Shown one piece after another: positions 58 to 45,331 of a stretch of 63,964 nucleotides of DNA (position 1 is the stretch's first letter; each line of letters starts with the position of its first letter). Made by a program: the position numbers and the translations under genes. Source of the DNA: Magnetococcales bacterium (GTDB lineage Bacteria; Pseudomonadota; Magnetococcia; Magnetococcales; DC0425bin3); assembly GCA_015231175.1 (NCBI GenBank), contig JADGBZ010000013.1, positions 1 through 63,964 on the forward strand. Reading direction: 5' to 3'. The notes below the pieces were generated by a model, which worked only from the letters and a program-made list of their open reading frames with translations, was not told where the DNA came from and ran no database searches.

Positions 58-972
58 TCAACCGGCACGGTCACTGCGCATGTAGCGTTCCCATTCGGCG
101 GCGAAGGGGTGGGCGTTGCGCGTGGCGCCATGCACCACCCGCCAACCCGGAAATCGCTCCGCCAAACCCTGGGCGGCGATGGCAGCTTCCTGCAGGGATG
201 CAAACACGCCAAAAACCGCCGTTCCACTGCCGGACATGCGCGCCGCCGAGGCCCCTGCTCCCCGCAAAGCAGAGAGCGCCTGACCCACCACAGGGGCCAA
301 ATCCACGGCCACGGACTCCAGATCGTTTTCCAAATCCCCAAAAACGTCCTCTCCTCGACATGCACTGGGGATGCTAATCGGGGATGCCCGGTTTGTCAAT
401 TGCCCGGCAAAGAGTCCGAACACCTTTTGCGTCGAAAGACCCACTCCCGGATGCACCACGACCAGATGCACCAAAGGAAGATTCGGCAAGGGGGTCAACA
501 ACTCCCCCACCCCTTCGGCCAGTGCCGCCTGCCCCCCCAGAAAAATGGGCACATCGGCACCCAAGGCCAAACCGATGGGCAGCAGGTCAGTCAAGGCAAG
601 ATCCAGATGCCACAGACGATTCAACGCCAACAGAGTGGTGGCCGCATCCGAGGAACCCCCTCCCAGGCCGGCGCCATCCGGAATCGTTTTTTCCAACGAA
701 ATATTGACACCCCGCCGAATGCCACAGGCACGACACAGGCTTGCAGCGGCACGATAAACCAGATTCTCCTCGGGACGCCGGGTGACCGGTGGGTGGCATG
801 CGAGCTGGATGGTGTCGCCCCCAGGCAGGAAGGTCAAGCGATCCTGCCAGGGGAAAAAAGTCATCACCGTCTTCAACAGGTGATATCCATCCGGTCGCCG
901 CCCCACCACGCGCAGCATCAGATTGACTTTGGCGGGAGCGGAAAAACAGGGAACCATGGGCATGTCCACCAT
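58..972 (-). CDS. ispE: 4-diphosphocytidyl-2-C-methyl-D-erythritol kinase
   Basis: GHMP-family kinase of the non-mevalonate (MEP) isoprenoid pathway. It phosphorylates CDP-methylerythritol in the cytoplasm. The protein begins MVDMPMVPCFSAPAKVNLML, with the family's N-terminal PAKVNL motif. The glycine-rich GHMP ATP loop follows (PDGAGLGGGSSDAA), and a C-terminal MSGSGTAVFG segment matches the third GHMP motif. At 304 residues it is slightly longer than the usual 280-290. The ATG shares one base with the upstream lolB stop (TGATG), so translational coupling is likely. A longer frame reaches 1149, but its extra N-terminus overlaps lolB and has no family similarity. The order TPR-lolB-ispE resembles the lolB-ispE pairing common in proteobacteria. 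Confidence 0.93.
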   Translation of the reverse strand: MVDMPMVPCFSAPAKVNLMLRVVGRRPDGYHLLKTVMTFFPWQDRLTFLPGGDTIQLACHPPVTRRPEENLVYRAAASLCRACGIRRGVNISLEKTIPDGAGLGGGSSDAATTLLALNRLWHLDLALTDLLPIGLALGADVPIFLGGQAALAEGVGELLTPLPNLPLVHLVVVHPGVGLSTQKVFGLFAGQLTNRASPISIPSACRGEDVFGDLENDLESVAVDLAPVVGQALSALRGAGASAARMSGSGTAVFGVFASLQEAAIAAQGLAERFPGWRVVHGATRNAHPFAAEWERYMRSDRAG

Positions 973-1742
973 CAATCCAGGGGTCGCCGTAGAGAAAACC
1001 CCGGCGGAATGGCGTCGCTCTCTGCCACCTGCTCCGCAGGGTCGCTGGCCTCCCATTGCCGCGCACGCACGACAAACAGGGCGTCGTCGCCGAGATGGAT
1101 GGAAATCTTCTCGGGCAGCAACACCCCCTGCGTGACCGGGGCACCCCAAAGATACTGGACCATGAAAGCGGTCCCATCCGGGGCGAGGCCATGACGTTCA
1201 AGTATGCGTCCGCTGTCAGGCACCAACAGCAAACGTTCACCGGTGGGAGTATCGGCCCACACCCCGCCATCCTCTCCCGGGGGAAGAACCGTGGCCGCTT
1301 CGGCCCTTGCCTGCAACAACGCCAGCAACAGACCTGGCTCCAAAGAAAGGCCTGTCAAATACTGCATGCCCTCCGCCGAAGCGGGCACCTCCACCACATC
1401 ACGTTTGCCCGGATCGGACAATCGGATCCACTCCCGGGTCAGGTGCAACTCGCCAGCCACGTCACGAAACGGGCCAAAAAGAACCAGACGCGCCCAAGTG
1501 ACGCCACGCCCCCACAACTCCATGCGGTTGCGGCGTAGAATCTTGGGCGTGTCCATCTCCAGGGTACCCTCCACCCGCCACCCTTCCGTCAGGAAACCGG
1601 TGCGGCGCAAGGCCTGGTCACTTTGGTAGCGCACGGCCACATCCCCCGACGCCACCCCACCCGGGAGAGGAGAAGGCAACGAAGCGCACCCCCCTACCGC
1701 CAGAAGAAGAGCAAAAAAGGAAAGGAGGTAACTGCTCACCAC
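972..1742 (-). CDS. lolB: LolB-like outer-membrane lipoprotein
   Basis: About 256 residues. The signal peptide SSYLLSFFALLLAVGGCASL has a lipobox (AVGGC), followed by a beta-rich domain with basic strands, as in LolB/DUF4292-type lipoproteins that receive lipoproteins at the outer membrane. The family call rests on the lipobox, the domain pattern and the position directly upstream of ispE; sequence similarity to classical LolB is weak. The frame stays open for 69 codons further upstream, but that part is the dispersed element translated. The first plausible starts are tandem GTG codons at 1742 and 1739, which lie inside the terminal repeat of the element. No good Shine-Dalgarno precedes them, so the start is uncertain. 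Confidence 0.7.
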   Translation of the reverse strand: MVSSYLLSFFALLLAVGGCASLPSPLPGGVASGDVAVRYQSDQALRRTGFLTEGWRVEGTLEMDTPKILRRNRMELWGRGVTWARLVLFGPFRDVAGELHLTREWIRLSDPGKRDVVEVPASAEGMQYLTGLSLEPGLLLALLQARAEAATVLPPGEDGGVWADTPTGERLLLVPDSGRILERHGLAPDGTAFMVQYLWGAPVTQGVLLPEKISIHLGDDALFVVRARQWEASDPAEQVAESDAIPPGFSLRRPLD

Positions 1743-1855
1743 CCGGCAACCGATCGGGATCCAGGGGACTGGCTCCCTGGCAGGTCCAGGACAGCGACCT
1801 GGTGAGGTTCGGGGCGAAGCCCTGACAAAGGCTTTCATATCCAGGCTTTTCTTGC
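1728..1855 (-). repeat. MITE-like dispersed element, copy A (leftward)
   Basis: On the minus strand this carries the conserved core (AAGCCTGGATATGAAAGCCT, then GGGCTTCGCCCC, then CCAGG/CCTGG hairpins). On the plus strand it ends with GTAACTGCTC, matching the terminal inverted repeat of other copies. The opposite terminus is missing; homology starts at CAAGAAAAGC. It sits between the TPR gene stop and lolB, and its end provides the presumptive lolB start codon. Confidence 0.8.
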
Positions 1856-1890
1856 GCATGCGGGAGAGCGCATGGACCACTCCCAGCCAG

Positions 1891-3699
1891 TCAAGGAGCC
1901 TTGTTGGCGTGCTTCTGGATTTTATCCCGCAGGAGCTGGTTGTCCGCATCCAACTCCAGGGCCTTCTGCCAGACCGCCATCGCCTCCTGCCCCTGGCCGA
2001 TGGCCATCAGGACATCCCCGAGGTGCTCGTTGATGGTAGGATCCTTGGGTTCCAGACGGACCGCCTCGCGCATGGTGGCCAAGGCCTCCGACAGGCGGTT
2101 GAGGCGAAAAAGCACCCACCCCAGACTGTCCGTGATAAACCCGTCACCCGGGGCCAATTTGACCGCTTTTTGCAGATATGCGTAGGATTGATCCAGTTTT
2201 TCGTTGCGATCCGCCCAGGAGTATCCGAGATAGTTCAGGGCCTGGGGATCATCCGGGTTGGCAACCAGGTAATCCAGCAAATCTTTTTCGGCTTCATTCC
2301 AGCGTTTCAGCTTGTCATAAGCCATGGCGCGATTGAACACCAACCGGGATTGTTTCGGATCCAGAACCAACCCGCGATTGGCCATCTCCACCACGCCCAC
2401 ATAATCCTTTTCCTGCAACATCAGGACACTGGCAGCCAGGAACACCTCTCCCTTATCCCCAAACTCCTCCACCAACCGGCGCACTCTTTCCAAGGCGACC
2501 GGCCCCTTGCCGTGGGTGGATTCATGATAGGCCAGGCGAATCTGCGCCTCCATATGGAAGGGTTCGCCTTTGGGGATCTGGGCAAAGGTCTTGGCGGCCT
2601 CTTCCCGTTGTTGCATCGCCTCCAAAGCTTGTCCGAGATAAAACAGAATCCCGGTATTGTCCGGTTGGATGGCCTGCGCCATACGCAACTCCTTCAAGGC
2701 CTCCTGGAAGGAACCCTGACTGAGCAGAATCAGGGCGCTCGTCAACCGGGCCTGGATGCTCTCGGGGGCCAGACGGGTGACAGTCTGAAACTGCTCCAGG
2801 GCCTCCTGGCGCTTATCCTGGGTCAACATCAGTCGCCCCAGGCGCGTATGCACCACACGGCTGCCGGGATTCCCGTCCAAATAAGCCCGATACACCTTTT
2901 CGGCCTCGGCCTGTCTCTCCATCTTCTGGAGCTGCCCGCCCAGGGCCAGAACCGGCTCGATCTGGTCAGGATCCAAACGCCTGGCCTCCTGAAACGCAGA
3001 GAGGGCCTTTTGATCATCGTCTTGTTCGATATAGACGCGCCCCATCGCCAAATGTGCCCGCCACGCAAAACCGGGTTTTTTGAACAAAGGTTCGAGCACC
3101 CGATGCGCCCGTTGTGGATCTTTCATCAAGCCATGGAGAGGGGCCAACAGCAAACGGACATGATCCGCATTTTCCCCGTGCTGGATCAAATATTCGTAGT
3201 GCTCGGCAGCCTCCGGCAATTTTTGCATGGTGCGTAACAGAGATGCGAGCAGCAGGCGGGTTCCTTCCCGCTTGGGGTCCAGGACAACCACAGCCTTGGC
3301 GTACAGGGTCGCCTTTTCCAGATCGCCCCGTTGCGTCGCCAATTGGGCAACAACTTCGCGAACATCCACACTCTTGGGGTCCAGATCGGCCACCCGGGTA
3401 AAGGCATCCTCGGCTTCCTGGAAGCGATGCTCACGCAGGTGGACAAACCCCAGCAGGTATTGGAGCGTGATATCCTTGTCTGAAGAGGCATTTTCCAACT
3501 GGCCGACGACACGGTCCAGGTCACCGGCATCATCACCCCATGCAACCTTCGCGGGCAGCACCGGCTCCCCCCCAACTGCGGGAGGCACAGCACAACCGGA
3601 AACTGCCATCGTCAAGCCGGAAACGGCAAGCCAGCCAAGCACAGAAACAACCCGCCAACCATCCATGCGCAAGACCATTCTCCAAAACTTCCACGCCAT
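1891..3699 (-). CDS. TPR-repeat lipoprotein
   Basis: About 602 residues. A basic N-terminus and hydrophobic stretch (WLAVSGLTMAVSGC) end in a lipobox, so the protein is probably lipid-anchored and periplasmic. The rest is an almost continuous array of tetratricopeptide repeats, seen as regularly spaced units such as YLGYSWADRN and HLGDVLMAIGQGQEAMAVWQ. TPR lipoproteins scaffold envelope complexes; no specific partner can be read here. The ATG at 3699 is preceded by GAGGGTGGGG; alternatives are a TTG at 3720 and ATGs at 3678 and 3666. It is followed after ~150 bp (holding element copy A) by lolB-ispE on the same strand. Its segment 3301-3355 recurs inverted at window bases 1-55. Confidence 0.85.
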   Translation of the reverse strand: MAWKFWRMVLRMDGWRVVSVLGWLAVSGLTMAVSGCAVPPAVGGEPVLPAKVAWGDDAGDLDRVVGQLENASSDKDITLQYLLGFVHLREHRFQEAEDAFTRVADLDPKSVDVREVVAQLATQRGDLEKATLYAKAVVVLDPKREGTRLLLASLLRTMQKLPEAAEHYEYLIQHGENADHVRLLLAPLHGLMKDPQRAHRVLEPLFKKPGFAWRAHLAMGRVYIEQDDDQKALSAFQEARRLDPDQIEPVLALGGQLQKMERQAEAEKVYRAYLDGNPGSRVVHTRLGRLMLTQDKRQEALEQFQTVTRLAPESIQARLTSALILLSQGSFQEALKELRMAQAIQPDNTGILFYLGQALEAMQQREEAAKTFAQIPKGEPFHMEAQIRLAYHESTHGKGPVALERVRRLVEEFGDKGEVFLAASVLMLQEKDYVGVVEMANRGLVLDPKQSRLVFNRAMAYDKLKRWNEAEKDLLDYLVANPDDPQALNYLGYSWADRNEKLDQSYAYLQKAVKLAPGDGFITDSLGWVLFRLNRLSEALATMREAVRLEPKDPTINEHLGDVLMAIGQGQEAMAVWQKALELDADNQLLRDKIQKHANKAP

Positions 3700-3765
3700 C
3701 GTGCGACACCCCACCCTCAAGGCAACGAGGTAGCTGACCTACTGGCAGCAGCGGATCAAGTGCCT

Positions 3766-12293: not shown

Positions 12294-13655
12294 ATGTTCG
12301 ATGCCTTAAGCGACCGCCTGGATGCGGTTTTCAAAAAACTGCGTGGACGTGGCACCCTGACGGAAGCCAACATTGACGAGGCCATGCGGGATGTGCGTTT
12401 GGCTCTGCTGGAGGCAGATGTCCATCTCAAGGTGGTGCGGGAGTTCATTGCCCGGGTCAAGGAGAAGGCCATCGGCATGGAGGTTTTGGCCACTCTCTCC
12501 CCGGGGCAGCAGGTGATCAAGGTGGTGCATGACGAATTGATCCACCTGATGGGAGATGCCAACGCAATTCTCAACCTGGCCACCCAACCCCCTGCCGTGG
12601 TGATGATGGTTGGCCTGCAAGGATCGGGCAAGACCACCAGCACCGGTAAACTCGCCCGCTGGCTGGCGGAAAAACAGCGCAAACGCAGCCTGTTGGTCTC
12701 CCTCGACATCTATCGACCCGCCGCCATGGACCAGTTGGCCACGATCGGCCAGCAGGCCGGGATCACCGTCCTACCCGGGCGCCCCCAGGATAATCCACGC
12801 CAGATTGCCCAGGATGCCCTGCGGGAGGCCCGCAACGGCGGCTACGATATCCTCTTTCTCGACACCGCCGGTCGGCTGCATATCGACGAGGAGTTGATGA
12901 CCGAACTGGCCGATGTCAAGGCCCTGGTCAACCCCATCGAAATATTGCTCGTGGCAGACGCCATGACCGGTCAGGATGCCATCACCGTCGCGGAACGTTT
13001 CCATGACCGTCTGGCCATCACGGGGGTGGTGTTGAGCAAGACCGATGGCGATGCCCGGGGGGGCGCTGCCCTCTCCATCCGCCATGTCACGGGCACCCCC
13101 ATCAAGTTTTTGGGAACCAGTGAAAAACTGGAGGGTTTGGAGCCGTTTCACCCCGACCGTCTCGCCTCCCGTATCCTGGGCATGGGGGATGTGCTCACCC
13201 TGGTCGAAACCGCCATCGAAAAGATGGATATGGCCAAGGCCAGCCAGTTCCAGGAAAAGATGCTCACCACTCAGTTCACGCTGGAAGATTTTTTGGAACA
13301 GATCCAGCAGATGAAAAAGATGGGATCCATGGGGGATTTGATCGGCATGATTCCCGGAGTCAAGCAGATGCTCAAGGGCCATGATGTTTCCGGAGCGGAT
13401 GGTCAACTCAAGCGCGTCGAAGCCATCATCCGTTCCATGACCCGGGAGGAGCGTCGCAAGCACCAGGTGATCAACGCCTCACGTCGCCGCCGCATCGCCA
13501 AAGGTTCAGGAACCTCCGTGCAAGAGGTCAACAAGGTTCTGAAACAATTTGTCGAGATGCAGAGCATGATGAAAAAACTGGGAAAATTGGGCAAGAAGGG
13601 GTTCATGCGCGGTGGTTTTCCCGGCATGCCCAAAATACCGGGGATGCCGTTTTGA
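12294..13655 (+). CDS. ffh: Signal recognition particle protein Ffh
   Basis: 453 residues: an N helical bundle, the GTPase G domain (GLQGSGKTTSTGKLARWLA, DTAGRLHIDEEL, TKTDGDARGGAAL-type motifs) and a methionine-rich M domain ending KIPGMPF that binds 4.5S RNA and signal sequences. It targets nascent membrane and exported proteins to FtsY/SecYEG. AGAGGA precedes the ATG. The frequent partners rpsP-rimM-trmD are not downstream here; a convergent gene follows after 60 bases. Confidence 0.97.
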   Translation: MFDALSDRLDAVFKKLRGRGTLTEANIDEAMRDVRLALLEADVHLKVVREFIARVKEKAIGMEVLATLSPGQQVIKVVHDELIHLMGDANAILNLATQPPAVVMMVGLQGSGKTTSTGKLARWLAEKQRKRSLLVSLDIYRPAAMDQLATIGQQAGITVLPGRPQDNPRQIAQDALREARNGGYDILFLDTAGRLHIDEELMTELADVKALVNPIEILLVADAMTGQDAITVAERFHDRLAITGVVLSKTDGDARGGAALSIRHVTGTPIKFLGTSEKLEGLEPFHPDRLASRILGMGDVLTLVETAIEKMDMAKASQFQEKMLTTQFTLEDFLEQIQQMKKMGSMGDLIGMIPGVKQMLKGHDVSGADGQLKRVEAIIRSMTREERRKHQVINASRRRRIAKGSGTSVQEVNKVLKQFVEMQSMMKKLGKLGKKGFMRGGFPGMPKIPGMPF

Positions 13656-18308: not shown

Positions 18309-19052
18309 TTACCGTTCTTCGACGGACCGCCTGATCAAGGGCACGAGCATGGGCACCCGCTTGCGGTAAAGCCCATAGGGTTCTCCCAGAGTGGTCAACA
18401 TGTCGCGCTCTTCCAGGAAAATGCCGATGAAGATATAGGCGCTCATGAAAGCCGCCCATAAAAAATGGCCCCATGTCATGACAGGAACCGCCCAAAACGC
18501 CACCATGGTGCCAACCATGATCGGGTGGCGGACGACCTTGTACATCCCCCTTTCATCAAACCGGGGTGGGGCATAAGGAAGACCCCGCATATGACAATAC
18601 ACCTGCCGCATGCCGAACAGATCGTAGTGATCGATCTGAAACGACGCCGCCAAGGGAGACAAAAGGGCCACGATGAACACCATCTGGATCATCCAGACAC
18701 CGGCCACATTCTCCACGCGCCACAACTCCCCCAGAATAGGCTGCCACAATCCCATGATCAACGCCAGCAACAACGATGCGACCAGGACATAGACGCTGCG
18801 TTCCAGGTGGGCGGGAACATGCCTGGTGAGCCATGCCTTGAAAAAGGGTCGGGAAGCCACGCTGTGATGAACGGCGAAAAGGAGCATCAGGAGGGTATCG
18901 ATCCCCAAAGATTGGAACAGCGGAACCCCTACCTGGGGAAAATCAATCGACTTGGGTACATACACATTGGCCAGGAAACCGGCAAGATAGACAAAGACCG
19001 CATTGAAGGCGGCATAGGCCATCAAACCAAAAATAAAATGAAGCAGGCGCAT
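18309..19052 (-). CDS. mddA: Methanethiol S-methyltransferase-like membrane protein (MddA/NnrU family)
   Basis: 247 residues, 5-6 transmembrane segments. It follows the MddA pattern closely: VPKSIDFPQVG, LFAVHHSVASRPFFKAWL, HLERSVYVLVASLLLAL, then the isoprenylcysteine-methyltransferase-type VVRHPIMVG and EERDMLTTLGEPYGLYRKRV. MddA methylates methanethiol to dimethyl sulfide with SAM; this is inferred from family resemblance, and NnrU-like proteins are close relatives. The ATG lies 55 bases after the hypF stop, inside the first unit of a 51-bp tandem duplication. Confidence 0.75.
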   Translation of the reverse strand: MRLLHFIFGLMAYAAFNAVFVYLAGFLANVYVPKSIDFPQVGVPLFQSLGIDTLLMLLFAVHHSVASRPFFKAWLTRHVPAHLERSVYVLVASLLLALIMGLWQPILGELWRVENVAGVWMIQMVFIVALLSPLAASFQIDHYDLFGMRQVYCHMRGLPYAPPRFDERGMYKVVRHPIMVGTMVAFWAVPVMTWGHFLWAAFMSAYIFIGIFLEERDMLTTLGEPYGLYRKRVPMLVPLIRRSVEER

Positions 19053-19141
19053 GTTCTATGATACCCCAACTTTGGAAGGCTGCCGGAAATGAAGCAAACG
19101 CATGTCTTATGATACCCCAACTTTGGAAGGCTGCCGGGAAT
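19040..19141. repeat. Two-unit 51-bp tandem duplication at the hypF/mddA junction
   Basis: Unit 1 (19040-19090) and unit 2 (19091-19141) are identical at 46 of 51 positions. Each unit, read leftward, contains the last codons of hypF with a stop (TAA in one, TAG in the other), a short spacer, and an ATG followed by codons for R-L-L-H-F, the mddA start. Unit 2 therefore encodes a decoy 15-codon frame (MRLLHFRQPSKVGVS) ahead of the true mddA start. Confidence 0.9.
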
Positions 19142-25878: not shown

Positions 25879-25987
25879 GTAACCACTCACCACCCTTGCA
25901 AGAAAAGTCTGGACATGAAAGCCTTTGTCAGGGCTTCGCCCCGAACCCCACCAGGAATCTCTCCTGGACCTGCCAGGGAGCCCCACC
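25879..25987 (+). repeat. MITE-like dispersed element, copy C (3'-truncated)
   Basis: It starts with GTAACCACTCACCACCCTTG and carries the core through the CCAGGAATCTCTCCTGG hairpin and CTGCCAGGGAGCC. Homology ends near 25987, just before the stop codon of the small exported protein gene at 25994. It is oriented against the surrounding genes. Confidence 0.8.
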
Positions 25988-31099: not shown

Positions 31100-34000
31100 A
31101 TGCATTCCATTTTGCAGAACCAGTTGAAACGCATTTTTGGCATAGGTTCTCCAGATGAACTGCACAACGTCCTGGCAGCTTTGCCCGAATTGGCAACCGG
31201 CGCAAACGTCACACCACAAGTGGGCCACTTTCTCTCCCGGATCGGCCTGTTCCTGGAGCGCGTCGACGGAAGTTACCAACAGTTTGGACGTGACCTCGAT
31301 CTGCGGGCCCGCAGCCTGCAAATCAGCTCTCAGGAGCTGGCCGAGACCAATGAACGTTTGCGTCAGGAATCCGCGGTGCAGCGATCCGCCATCCAATCAC
31401 TGCGTGAAACGGCCAACCAACTCCTGAGAGGTGATGGCAAACCGGAACTGGGGAGTGATGCCAACAGCCTGCAAAAACTCTCCGCCCTGGTCGCCACCAT
31501 CGTCGAAGAGCGCGCCATCGCCCAACGCGACCTGGAACGCCAGAAGTTTGCGCTGGATCAACACGCCATCGTCAGCATCACCGACACCTCAGCCACCATC
31601 CTCTACGCGAACGACAAATTTTGCGAAATCTCCGGGTACTCCCGGGAGGAGTTGATCGGCAAAAACCATCGCATCGTCAAATCCAGGATTCACCCGCCCT
31701 CTGTCTACCAGGAGATGTGGAACACCATCTCCCAGGGAAATGTCTGGCACGGAGAGATTTGCAATGAGGCCAAAAACGGGACGCTTTACTGGGTCTCGGC
31801 AACGATCGTACCCTTGCTCGACTCAACCGGAAAACCTGAACAGTACATTGCCATCCGGACCGACATCACCCTGCAAAAGAGCATGGAATCCGCCCTGATC
31901 GAGCAGCGCCGTTTTCTGCAAAGCATCACCGATGCCATGGGTGAAGGGGTCTATTATCTCGACGCCAAGGGTCACTGCACCTTCTTGAACCCCGAGGCGC
32001 AACGCCTTCTGGGCTATTCGGAAAAGGATGTCCAGGGAAAACCCTTCCACGACATCACCCATTTCAAGGACGGAAATGGCCAACCGCTGGCATTGGAAGA
32101 TTGCCCGATCCTGCAAACCATCTCCCGGGGCGAGACCTATAAATCCGAAAACGACTATTTTGTGCGCCGTGACGGCACGCAGTTCCCCATATCCATCGTT
32201 TCGGTCCCCCTGTTCACGGAAGAGCAGTTGACCGGCTCGGTATCGGTTTTTCAGGACATCACCGAGCGGCGGCAGATTTTCCAGGTACTGAAGAAGGCCA
32301 AGGAGGATGCGGAAAACGCCAACCAGCTCAAAAGCAACTTCCTGGCCAACATGAGCCATGAAATTCGCACCCCGATGAATGGCATCATCGGCTTGAGCCA
32401 CCTGCTGACGCAGACCGACCTCTCTCCCCAACAACGCGATTATCTGCTCAAGATCGATTACTCCGCACGCAATCTCCTGGGCATCATCAACGATATTCTC
32501 GACTTCTCCAAGGTTGAGGCCGGCAAGCTGACCATCGAGCGCATTCCCTTCAACCTGACGGAGCTCCTTCAGGAAATAACACCCGTCATTCAAGCCAGAA
32601 TTCGGGAGAAAGGACTGGAACTGGTTTTCGACCTGAGTTCCCACCTCCCTCCTTTACTGCTCGGTGATCCTCTGCGCCTGCGCCAAATCCTCCTCAACCT
32701 GGTCTCCAATGCGGTCAAGTTTACGGAGACGGGAACGGTCGTGATCACCGTCCGCAGCGAGATTCTGGAGGGTGACCTGGTCCGCATCGACTTCAAAGTT
32801 CAGGACACCGGCATCGGCATGACACCGGCACAAGCAGCCACACTTTTTCAACCATTTGTTCAGGCTGATAATTCATCCAGCCGCCGCTATGGCGGCACAG
32901 GACTGGGACTGGCCATCAGCCGTCAGTTGGTCGAACTGATGGGAGGGGGCATATCCGTTACCAGCACCCCGGATGTGGGTAGCACGTTCCATTTCCATGT
33001 GCCGTTCCGCCTCGTCAGTCAAAATCCGGATATCTATTGTTTTCCAGAAGAGATGAGAAATCTGCACATCCTGGTCGTGGATGACAGTGCAGCTGTCCGT
33101 ACCATTCTGGCCGATACCCTGGAACATTTCGGTCTTTGCGTCGATCTCGCCGAGAGTGGTGCAACGGCCTTGCAGGCACTGCAACAGACCGCCGAGGGGA
33201 CAAGAGCCCCTTACCGAATTCTTCTGCTCGACTGGCGCATGCCAGACATGGATGGGGTTGAGACGCTCCGGCGCATCATGTCGTTGACCATTCCCCAACC
33301 CCATACGATCATGATGACGGCCTATGGCATGGAGTCGGTGCAATCCGCCCTCGGGGAGATTCGCGTTGCGGGCATTTTGGAAAAACCGATCACACCCTCC
33401 ACCCTGTTCGACTCTCTCGTTCACGTCCTGGATCTGCCGGATCAAGCCCCAAACACAAACGCCTCGCCACGACCCATGCACGGAAAAGCTCCCGGATACG
33501 CACCGACATTGCGAGGCCGGCAGGTGTTGTTGGTGGAGGACAACCCCATCAACCAGCAGGTCGCCAGTGGTCTGCTGGATCTGATGGGCATCGAGGTCAC
33601 CCTGGCTTCCGGTGGCGAGATGGCGATCACCGCCCTGCGCCAGCATCGCTTCGATGTCGTCCTGATGGATATCCAGATGCCGGGCATGGATGGATACCAA
33701 ACCACAGAGGTGATCCGCCAAAATCTCGGCCTGGAGCAGCTTCCCATCATCGCCATGACGGCCCACGCCATGGCCGGAGACCGCGAACGGTGCCTCGCTG
33801 CGGGCATGAACGACCATGTGGCCAAGCCCATCGATCCGACAACCCTGCATGACGTTCTCACGCGCTGGCTGACTGAATACCCGCCTTTTTCGGAAAACCC
33901 TTTTTCACCCACCGACACTCCGGCCCTCCAACAGGAAACCCACACCATTGCCGCACTTCCGGAAAACATGCCCGGCATCCATTTGGACGCAGCCTGCCGC

Positions 34001-37475: not shown

Positions 37476-38614
37476 TGAGCACCACAAAAAATCACATTCT
37501 GGTCGTCGATGACGAACCCATCAATTTGAAGGTGCTCTCCAACATCCTGCGCGACCTTTATTCCATCAGCGTGGCCAAGGATGGACCCCATGCCCTGGCA
37601 AGAGTCGCTGCCGGTCCCAAGCCGGATCTTATCCTGCTTGACGTGATGATGCCCGACATGGATGGCCTTGAAGTGTGTCAACGTCTGAAACAGGAAGAGA
37701 GCACGGCACACATCCCCGTCATATTTGTGACCGCCCTGGGCCAACCGCACAACGAAACCCAGGGATTCGAGGCCGGGGCCGTCGATTACATCACCAAACC
37801 CATCTCTCCCTCGGTGGTCCTTGCCCGGATACGCACCCATATCGCCCTGGTGCAGACCCAACGTGCGTTACGTGACCACAATCTCGAACTTGAGCGCCTG
37901 GTCGCCCAGCGCACCCAGGAGGTCGTCAGCACCCAGGATGTGACCATTCGCGCCATGGCCTCCCTCGCCGAAACCCGTGACAACGAAACCGGCAATCATG
38001 TCAAACGTACCCAACATTATGTACGTGTACTGGCTGAACGTCTGCGCAATCATCCCAGCCATGCTTCCGTTCTTGACGATCGTACTATCGGCCTGCTTTT
38101 CAAATCTGCCCCGCTGCATGACATTGGCAAAGTCGGCATTCCCGATGCCATCCTGTTGAAGCCCGGCAAGTTGACCGATGCAGAGTTCGACATCATGAAA
38201 AAACATCCCGACCTGGGTCGGAATGCCATTCTGGCTGCCGAAGAGAGCCCGGATGATCACAATATCTCCTTCTTGCGCCTGGCCCGGGAAATAGCCCACA
38301 GCCATCACGAAAAATGGGACGGCTCTGGTTATCCTCTGGGTCTGTCCGGCACGGAGATCCCCCTGGCGGCCCGCCTCATGGCCCTGGCCGATGTCTACGA
38401 TGCCCTGATCAGCCGGCGCGTCTATAAACCACCCTTCCCGCACGAGAAAGCTGTCGAGATCATCATGGAAGGAAGAGGCAGACATTTCGATCCGGATATT
38501 CTCGATGCTTTTGCCCTGGAAAAGGATGCCTTCAAAACGATAGCCGACTCCTTCAGCGATGCACAGGCGCCAGAAACAGATGCCAGCAGTGACGCTTATG
38601 AAAAATTTTCGTAG
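37475..38614 (+). CDS. HD-GYP response regulator (c-di-GMP phosphodiesterase)
   Basis: 379 residues: REC (ILVVDDEPIN, phosphoacceptor Asp56 in LILLDVMMPDMDG, TKPISPS), a coiled-coil linker, then an HD-GYP domain with LHDIGKVGIPDAIL, SHHEKWDGSGYP (complete GYP) and ADVYDALISRR. These enzymes linearise c-di-GMP. The ATG at 37475 shares its first base with the kinase stop; a TTG one codon earlier is possible. The stop codon TAG lies inside the left terminal repeat of element copy D, so the last residue or two may have been set by that insertion. Confidence 0.94.
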   Translation: MSTTKNHILVVDDEPINLKVLSNILRDLYSISVAKDGPHALARVAAGPKPDLILLDVMMPDMDGLEVCQRLKQEESTAHIPVIFVTALGQPHNETQGFEAGAVDYITKPISPSVVLARIRTHIALVQTQRALRDHNLELERLVAQRTQEVVSTQDVTIRAMASLAETRDNETGNHVKRTQHYVRVLAERLRNHPSHASVLDDRTIGLLFKSAPLHDIGKVGIPDAILLKPGKLTDAEFDIMKKHPDLGRNAILAAEESPDDHNISFLRLAREIAHSHHEKWDGSGYPLGLSGTEIPLAARLMALADVYDALISRRVYKPPFPHEKAVEIIMEGRGRHFDPDILDAFALEKDAFKTIADSFSDAQAPETDASSDAYEKFS

Positions 38615-38757
38615 CTATTCACCACCCTTGCAAGAAAAGCATGGATATGAAAGCCTTTGTCAGGGCTTCGCCCCGAACCCCACCAGGACTCTGTCCTGGA
38701 CCTGCCAGGGAGCCAGCCCCCTGGACCCCGATTCGTGGCATGGTGGGGAATGGTTTC
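38611..38757 (+). repeat. MITE-like dispersed element, copy D (full length)
   Basis: 147 bp with terminal inverted repeats GTAGCTATTC and GAATGGTTTC. Inside are GGGCTTCGCCCC, the hairpin CCAGGACTCTGTCCTGG and a second CCAGGG/CCCTGG hairpin. Homology to copy H continues for about 35 more bases (CGTAACCAT...CCCGGC). A direct repeat AATTTTCGTA occurs in the left flank and just beyond the right end. It has no coding capacity of its own. Confidence 0.85.
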
Positions 38758-42073: not shown

Positions 42074-42219
42074 GTAACCGTTCAGCACCCCTTCCAGAAC
42101 GGCCCGGATATGAAAACCTTTGTCGGGGCTTCGCCGAACCCCACCAGGGCACTGCCCTGGACAAAGCCAGGGAGCCATCCCCCTGAATCCCGATGCATTC
42201 CCGGGTTCTGAATGCTTAC
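42074..42219 (+). repeat. MITE-like dispersed element, copy E (full length, diverged)
   Basis: 146 bp between GTAACCGTTC and GAATGCTTAC. The core is diverged (GGATATGAAAACCTTTGTCG, CCAGGGCACTGCCCTGG), and the variant CCTTCCAGAACGGC replaces CTTGCAAGAAAAGC, as in copy G. Copies E and G also share a left flank resembling TTCAGGCCC, so they form a subfamily. Confidence 0.8.
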
Positions 42220-42907: not shown

Positions 42908-43042
42908 GTGACTATTCCGCACTCTTTCAAGAAAAGCTTGGAAATGAAAGCCTTTGTCAGGGCTTAGCCCCGAACCCCACCAGGGTGCTGCCCTGGACTA
43001 AGCCAGGGAGCCAGCCCCCTGGACCCCGATTCATGGCTTGCC
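42908..43042 (+). repeat. MITE-like dispersed element, copy F (right end missing)
   Basis: Left end GTGACTATTC, then the core with GGGCTTAGCCCC and the hairpin CCAGGGTGCTGCCCTGG. Homology fades after CCCCGATTCATGGC and no right terminal repeat is found. Confidence 0.75.
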
Positions 43043-43140: not shown

Positions 43141-43287
43141 GCAACCATCCTGAAACCCTTCCAGAACAGCTTGGATATGAAAGATTTTATCGGGGATTCG
43201 CGCCGCACCCAAGCATGGCGCTGCCCTGGACCCGCCTGGGGACCATCCCCCTGGACCCCGATGCGTTGCCGGGTTCCGAAGGGTTAC
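43141..43287 (+). repeat. MITE-like dispersed element, copy G (full length, diverged)
   Basis: 147 bp between GCAACCATCC and GAAGGGTTAC. Its core is the most diverged in the window (GGATATGAAAGATTTTATCG, GCACCCAAGCATGG), while the 3' half keeps CCCCCTGGACCCCGATGCGT. It lies 56 bases upstream of the SulP start. Confidence 0.7.
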
Positions 43288-45183: not shown

Positions 45184-45331
45184 GTAACTATTCACCACCC
45201 TTTCATGGAAAGCCTGGACATGAAAGCCTTTGTCAGGGCCTCGCCCCGAACCCCACCAGGACTCTGCTCTGGACTAAGCCAGGGAGCCAGCTCCCTGGAC
45301 CCCGATTCGTGGCCGGGCGATGAATGGTTAC
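45184..45331 (+). repeat. MITE-like dispersed element, copy H (full length)
   Basis: 148 bp between GTAACTATTC and GAATGGTTAC, the best terminal-repeat pair in the window. It begins three bases after the sulP stop. Core motifs as in copy D, and the ~35 bases after its right end match those after copy D. Confidence 0.88.

Follow-up and report, generated by a model that had tools for sequence, protein, structure and literature searches.

Where does translation of a lipoprotein gene begin when a mobile repeat is joined directly to its signal peptide? The window analysed here, a 63,964-nt stretch that makes up an entire contig (C13) of a 175-contig, 3.81-Mb assembly of a Magnetococcales bacterium, raises this question near its left end, where the minus strand carries a TPR gene, a lipoprotein gene and ispE in this order (Table 1). 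A copy of a repeat of about 147 bp, copy A, lies ahead of the lipoprotein gene, and an earlier note on this DNA had suggested that its insertion replaced the native translation start.

Copy A and its junction with a lolB gene

Copy A was recovered in an nhmmer profile search (4.6e-39, 131 bits), and many other copies of the repeat match it at near 90% identity, while its left terminal repeat (model positions 1-18) had no match in the same search. On the minus strand, the junction reads CGG, two GTG codons (1742-1740 and 1739-1737) and AGC AGT TAC for S-S-Y (1736-1728), and directly after the element, from 1727, CTC CTT TCC and so on (LLSFFALLLAVGGC), up to a lipobox LAVGGC read from the sequence with its cysteine codon at 1688-1686. 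The earlier note had placed both GTGs and the S-S-Y codons inside the terminal repeat of copy A and the start of the signal peptide at the element boundary; both placements hold, as the model match ends at 1729, the consensus terminal C is at 1728 and the first base of the hydrophobic segment comes directly after it. We dropped a target duplication at copy A (CTCCTTTC versus CTCCTTGA at 1898), and likewise a left terminal repeat in decayed form, since shuffled sequences equalled them in 23% and 19% of cases, respectively. An Rfam scan of window positions 1600-2010 found no known RNA family and gave two matches far below the gathering score.

Table 1 Positions in the window of copy A, the lolB start region, the neighbouring genes and the other copies of the repeat
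Feature	Position	Strand	Remark
MITE copy A	1728..1856	-	model 19-146 at 1856..1729, plus consensus terminal C at 1728
Right terminal inverted repeat of copy A (GGGTGGTGAGCAGTTAC)	1728..1744	-	frame 0 open, contains GTG GTG
Hydrophobic segment of signal peptide and lipobox (LLSFFALLLAVGGC)	1686..1727	-	starts at first base past the element
LolB-family lipoprotein gene	972..1742	-	if begun at GTG 1742; open frame reaches 2006
Candidate start GTG 1742, preferred	1740..1742	-	in terminal repeat of copy A
Candidate start GTG 1739	1737..1739	-	in terminal repeat of copy A
Alternative in-frame start ATG 1838	1836..1838	-	inside element; overlaps stop of small upstream ORF (ATGA)
Alternative in-frame start ATG 1859	1857..1859	-	abuts aligned element from outside
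Upstream ORF, 12 codons (MRSPACARKAWI, then stop)	1835..1873	-	behind GGGAG; starts 17 nt after TPR stop
Upstream TPR gene	1891..3720	-	stop 34 nt before aligned copy A
Downstream ispE ORF	58..1149	-	kinase homology from residue 69
Other MITE copy, partial	25879..25983	+	profile search
Other MITE copy, full	38611..38757	+	profile search; 8-bp target duplication AAATTTTC
Other MITE copy	42074..42219	+	profile search
Other MITE copy	42908..43038	+	profile search
Other MITE copy	43143..43287	+	profile search
Other MITE copy	45184..45331	+	profile search
Other MITE copy, cut by contig end	63873..63964	+	profile search

On sequence comparison, the lipoprotein gene downstream of copy A is a divergent, conserved LolB. 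LolB works at the outer membrane, where LolA hands lipoproteins over to it, and lolB is essential in E. coli. The likeness lies in the position of a lipoprotein gene beside ispE and in a family profile that matches five solved LolB chains (8.8e-5 to 2.3e-3); 12 of the 19 aligned family members matched PF03550 at E ≤ 0.1, whereas the very divergent window protein alone gave no Pfam match, PF03550 included. Protein searches found matches to it in 44 of 61 genomes, its own included, and the order TPR-lolB-ispE is common to the window and two genomes of the same genus, G001 and G002. Cys19 is invariant across the 19-row family alignment and, together with the lipobox, predicts a lipoprotein signal peptide. 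Differences by codon position (56/52/108 versus G002 and 61/60/132 versus G001) show a third-position excess, therefore the gene looks functional. Protein search turned up no second full-length copy in the genome, the single additional match being 21 residues long and located at the end of a contig. The earlier note had called for a comparison with relatives lacking the insertion, and it came out as that note would have it: the fetched lolB loci of G002 (L010) and G001 (L011) contain no significant match to the repeat, and their N-termini differ from that of the window protein. In another genome of the order (G006, locus L022) a different repeat-like stretch, reading TLSPCGRGKGEG, stands just before the lolB signal peptide, possibly the same trick performed with an unrelated repeat.

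Further repeated stretches were seen in the window. Positions 1-55 repeat positions 3301-3355 of the TPR gene without a mismatch, as their reverse complement. This fold-back at the edge of the contig is probably an artefact of assembly or amplification. There is a 51-bp tandem duplication with 92% identity at 19036-19137, and three related stretches (243 and 78 nt) at 32309, 36429 and 50242, which we take to be probable histidine-kinase paralogs.

The repeat in the genome and its IS66-like ends

The repeat is a MITE, a non-autonomous transposable element, and is classed so because its 147-bp full copies have terminal inverted repeats (GTAACTATTCAGCACCC ... GGGTGGTGAATAGTTAC, with the tip sequence GTAACTATTCA...) and 8-bp target duplications; it is multicopy and carries no transposase gene. 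Target duplications of 8 bp (at least 7 of 8 positions matching) flank 29 of the 47 full copies, against a mean of 0.8 and a maximum of 5 in shuffles, while 9-bp duplications (at least 8 matching) were found in only one of the 47. The profile was built from one window copy and had 156 matches in the first 454 kb and three small loci; in 2.04 Mb, or 53% of the genome, it had 451. The 1.58 Mb not selected for hits contained 301 matches, equal to 0.19 per kb and 2.0% of bases, which projects to about 725 per genome with fragments counted. At up to two mismatches, the terminal signature is found at 214 places in the genome, compared with 0 for a reversed-pattern control, and is not a product of chance. 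Matches were present in 23 of 41 genomes, the own genome included, many of them to the core alone; G036, G020 and G038 are genomes with related repeats. In G039, which belongs to another family of the order, two copies (C109:2963-3109 at locus L041 and C157:1-109 at locus L064) show 89% and 94% identity with the window copy, and may reflect recent transfer or contamination of the G039 assembly.

In their sequence, the MITE ends are IS66-like. In the IS66 family, inverted repeats start with GTAAGCG and are accompanied by 8-bp direct repeats (PMC11946415). The MITE shares the GTAA tip and the 8-bp duplications with the family so described, whereas it has no transposase and begins with GTAACTA rather than GTAAGCG (PMC11946415). 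The genome gave two IS66 matches, and comparison of the ends only showed L089 and L090 to agree with the MITE in the tip, the TTCA core and the duplication length. One of them, an IS66-type element with a 19-bp terminal repeat (L089 736..2434), has the ends GTAGTCGTTCAGAGACCCC/GTAACCGTTCAGAGACCCC and flanks that match at 7 of 8 positions; its better end differs from the 17-bp repeat of the MITE at 5 of 17 positions. L089 is a candidate relative of a putative mobiliser of the MITE.

Candidate starts of lolB

We propose that the front of lolB received an insertion of a non-autonomous IS66-like MITE, within or beside the stretch encoding the N-region of the native signal peptide, and that the hydrophobic segment thereby came to adjoin the outward right end of the MITE, with its one open frame containing GTG codons. 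Under this reading, lolB would be translated from inside the element, at GTG 1742 or 1739, or at ATG 1838 coupled through the small upstream ORF, and the lipoprotein would owe to the element its start codon as well as the N-region of its signal peptide. In favour of an element-borne start we count the evidence that the repeat is a MITE, the lack of any ATG, GTG or TTG between the end of the element and the lipobox cysteine, the element-free G002 and G001 loci with their different N-termini, the functional look of the gene, and the parallel genes described below. The lolB frame is open from 2006 to the end of the gene and has six in-frame ATG, GTG or TTG codons before the lipobox (ATG 1949, GTG 1880, ATG 1859, ATG 1838, GTG 1742 and GTG 1739), and the next one, TTG 1679, is already past the cysteine. 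The two GTGs are hence not the first usable starts, as the earlier note had it, but the last of the six, and also the last ordinary starts that would yield a lipoprotein; a score-based gene caller set the start downstream of the lipobox.

None of these candidates is well supported by its sequence context. The longest Shine-Dalgarno match is 3 nt at GTG 1742, GTG 1739 (1 nt away), ATG 1838 and GTG 1880, none was found at ATG 1859, and ATG 1949 has 4 nt but lies inside the TPR gene. However, the absence of such a match is only mild evidence, because at least 4 matching nucleotides precede 47% of 772 score-chosen starts of the same genome and as many as 24.5% of random inner positions. Coupling of the 12-codon upstream ORF to ATG 1838, which overlaps its stop codon, is a plausible route. 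Against an element-borne start we counted the Shine-Dalgarno matches of at most 3 nt at the GTGs, an mRNA no more open there than elsewhere (predicted mean unpaired 0.40 and 0.25 at the two GTGs, 0.38 over the whole stretch), the derived N-region M-V-S-S-Y with no Lys or Arg and so no positive charge, the four other in-frame starts upstream, the start chosen by the gene caller, and the lack of a recognisable target duplication or left terminal repeat at copy A. The open frame through the element was dropped as a sign of selection: when frame 0 is read from a start codon at -111, 53 of the 68 comparable MITE copies are open anyway, so that openness is not evidence of use. Weighing these points, we consider that lolB translation probably, if far from certainly, begins at one of the element-borne codons taken together; within that reading, the GTGs at 1742 and 1739 are the most likely, with about two thirds of the weight, and ATG 1838 takes about one third. 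The repeat and its boundary, the open frame, the conserved gene, the relatives without the element and the parallel genes are observed; the codon used, and removal rather than displacement of the native start, are what we infer. The claim that insertion replaced the native start is thus likely, and part of it stands, namely a real transposable repeat and an intact, conserved gene; use of the GTGs is less secure, in view of the ATGs that lie upstream in frame, the poor Shine-Dalgarno matches, the uncharged N-region and a parallel gene, described below, that keeps a native-looking start.

The main competitor, which we judge unlikely though well short of negligible, is that translation starts outside the element, at ATG 1859 or further up in the TPR gene, and reads through the element as a long N-region. 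It agrees with the frame being open from 2006 onwards, and it has a precedent in the same genome: the gene at C62:12580 keeps a TTG behind GGGAGGAG and reads through an element remnant flanked on both sides by AAAAAATT. Long N-regions also occur in the family, as in element-free G001 the nearest in-frame start (TTG) lies about 23 residues before the hydrophobic segment. From ATG 1859, however, the N-region would be MRKKSLDMKAFVRASPRTSPGRCPGPAREPVPWIPIGCRVVSSY followed by LLSFF..., that is, 44 residues ahead of the hydrophobic segment, and the lipobox cysteine would be residue 58, which is unusually deep; ATG 1859 has no Shine-Dalgarno match; and the coding score is negative for the element and the stretch upstream of it, a weak argument given that the signal-peptide stretch is slightly negative too. 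We did not accept G001 as proof that ATG 1859 is the native start. The similar ATGCGCAAAAAG of G001 lies inside the last codons of its TPR gene, unlike the window's ATGCGCAAGAAA, which lies after the TPR stop, and we treated the resemblance as chance.

It is improbable that the insertion crippled expression, leaving lolB silent or poorly expressed and another protein in its role. The weak initiation context of every candidate but ATG 1949 would fit such an outcome, but the 251 intact codons beyond the element with their third-position substitution excess, the gene order shared with G001 and G002, and the failure to find a second full-length copy argue against it. A start at a rare codon, for example the ATC at a place where some other copies have ATG, or at another codon outside our list is slightly more improbable still: two of the fused copies (L071 and C52) do have ATG at that place, but ATC starts are very rare. 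An element-borne start hence remains our preferred reading for lolB.

Recurrence at other genes and comparison with known elements

A survey of the 2.04 Mb covered 201 right ends and 215 left ends, and 86 gene-like open frames were found to cross an end. The open frame of the right end is rich in GTG and ATG and reads I-R-C-R-V-V-N-S-Y; GTG stands at codon -15 in 146 of the 201 right ends, and the final 15 nt contain a stop in only 3 of these 201 ends when read in frame 0, compared with 85 in frame 1 and 163 in frame 2. A hydrophobic segment within 22 residues was found in 8 of the 15 right-end crossings in frame 0 versus 7 of the 71 others (Fisher p 0.0004, a descriptive value, as the threshold, a mean of at least 1.9 over 10 residues in the first 22, was set after the cases had been seen). 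By the same measure, the ten left-end crossings in frame 0 had no hydrophobic segment. In six of the eight, lolB included, the element forms or enters the N-terminus, with the hydrophobic window 0-8 residues past the boundary; five further genes in this 53% of the genome thus have an export or membrane segment starting at most 8 residues from the same MITE end, in the frame that its terminal repeat keeps open. Protein labels such as outer-membrane efflux lipoprotein, HlyD-like, Sel1 or NrfD-like are presumed from the sequences.

A parallel for an element-supplied start is C10:17997, which has the architecture of lolB (IRGRVANGY/WFLFLAVLPTGC, the slash marking the boundary), with no ATG or GTG between element and lipobox and a TTG at +6. 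A search for a same-genus ortholog of it found none; the closest relative found, in G039, is 45% identical and has its own MANRTRMIPALAC... N-terminus. L071:14001 reads MRCRVMNGC/VLFTLLSIWSFASWA, with an alternative GTG lying right at the boundary and no target duplication (4 of 8 positions), and its relatives in G002 (60%) and G001 (55%) have other N-termini and no element match there. The same holds for the G002 relative (67% identical) of C52:6547, which reads MRQLFFRGRVLSGC/LQGSFPLPGLFILVLALL and has a TTG at +18 as an alternative. C2:1, at a contig end, reads VSKGC/LFLLFLTAMWGG with a TTG at +9. As these four genes keep a TTG or GTG at or past the boundary (+18, +6, +9 and 0 for C52, C10, C2:1 and L071), the element start is not strictly required there. 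The lipoprotein gene at C62:12580 (about 12580-12613, locus L203) shows a second mode, in which, to judge by its sequence, the gene retains a native-looking start and uses the element as an inserted N-region: a TTG with a strong Shine-Dalgarno sequence, behind GGGAGGAG, starts MKKIASVTP, followed in frame by an internally deleted 33-bp MITE remnant (model 114-146) and by KKLSGFSFLALFVVSAC, and AAAAAATT, likely the target sequence, flanks both sides of the remnant. Its relatives in G002 (64% identical) and G001 have other N-termini and no element match there. This gene is evidence, from within the same genome, for the read-through alternative at lolB.

Other crossings were rejected. Two of the eight keep native starts: the HlyD-like gene at L074:16637 has its boundary GTG conserved in an element-free G002 relative (79% identical), and C10:12088 has its own ATG at +6. 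C62:10778, C10:46114, C6:7546, L082:2819, C54:12388, L084:14039 and L082:10053 were taken, on inspection by eye, for cases of a native start, an antisense frame or a broken transposase; these seven are counted within the 15. In G001 and G002, a stricter right-end pattern occurred at 0 and 3 places, respectively.

Tentatively, and with somewhat less confidence than an even call would take, we suggest that the right MITE end is a portable translation start with a short basic N-region, which genes for exported and membrane proteins adopt or tolerate, lolB being one of perhaps ten captures in this genome. Such genes could tolerate the MITE end because the N-region of a signal peptide is a gene start whose sequence hardly matters.

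Fusions of MITEs with ORFs, some of them at signal peptides, are already published. ERIC/RU is a MITE-like repeat of about 127-168 bp with open frames fused to enterobacterial ORFs at 24 annotated loci (PMC2759123); RU-2 forms residues 1-30 of YPO1552, within a predicted signal peptide, with unrelated signal sequences in the relatives (Delihas 2007, PMC2759123), and YPO2495, a second RU-2 locus, has a predicted signal sequence too (0.722) (PMC2759123). In that account, fusions with large conserved proteins are C-terminal, whereas the MITE described here joins six export or membrane genes at the N-terminus, by the same end and in the same frame, within half of the genome. Repeats of about 150 bp known as Rickettsia palindromic elements (RPE) are described as lying in frame in protein genes and being translated (PMC10969869). 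They are described as inserts within ORFs with a conserved peptide (PMC10969869), while in our case the N-terminus comes from the end of a MITE with 8-bp duplications, and translation of the interior is not required. The likeness that we propose to ERIC/RU or RPE is one of mode of action alone, and the MITE is a different repeat from ERIC/RU. Searches in a library of open-access papers found no report of the window MITE, of Magnetococcales genes with a start supplied by a MITE, or of one MITE end being used repeatedly to begin an export signal; on that basis, the recurrent capture as an export-signal N-region is what is new.

If the proposal is true, tiny mobile repeats rewrite the fronts of conserved genes by donating start codons and export-signal N-regions, and lolB, a normally essential outer-membrane lipoprotein factor, is among the rewritten genes. 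Automatic start-site annotation near MITE copies may then be wrong. Furthermore, the proposal would offer a testable route by which transposable elements alter proteins and yet leave them intact, and would explain export signals as a favoured landing zone.
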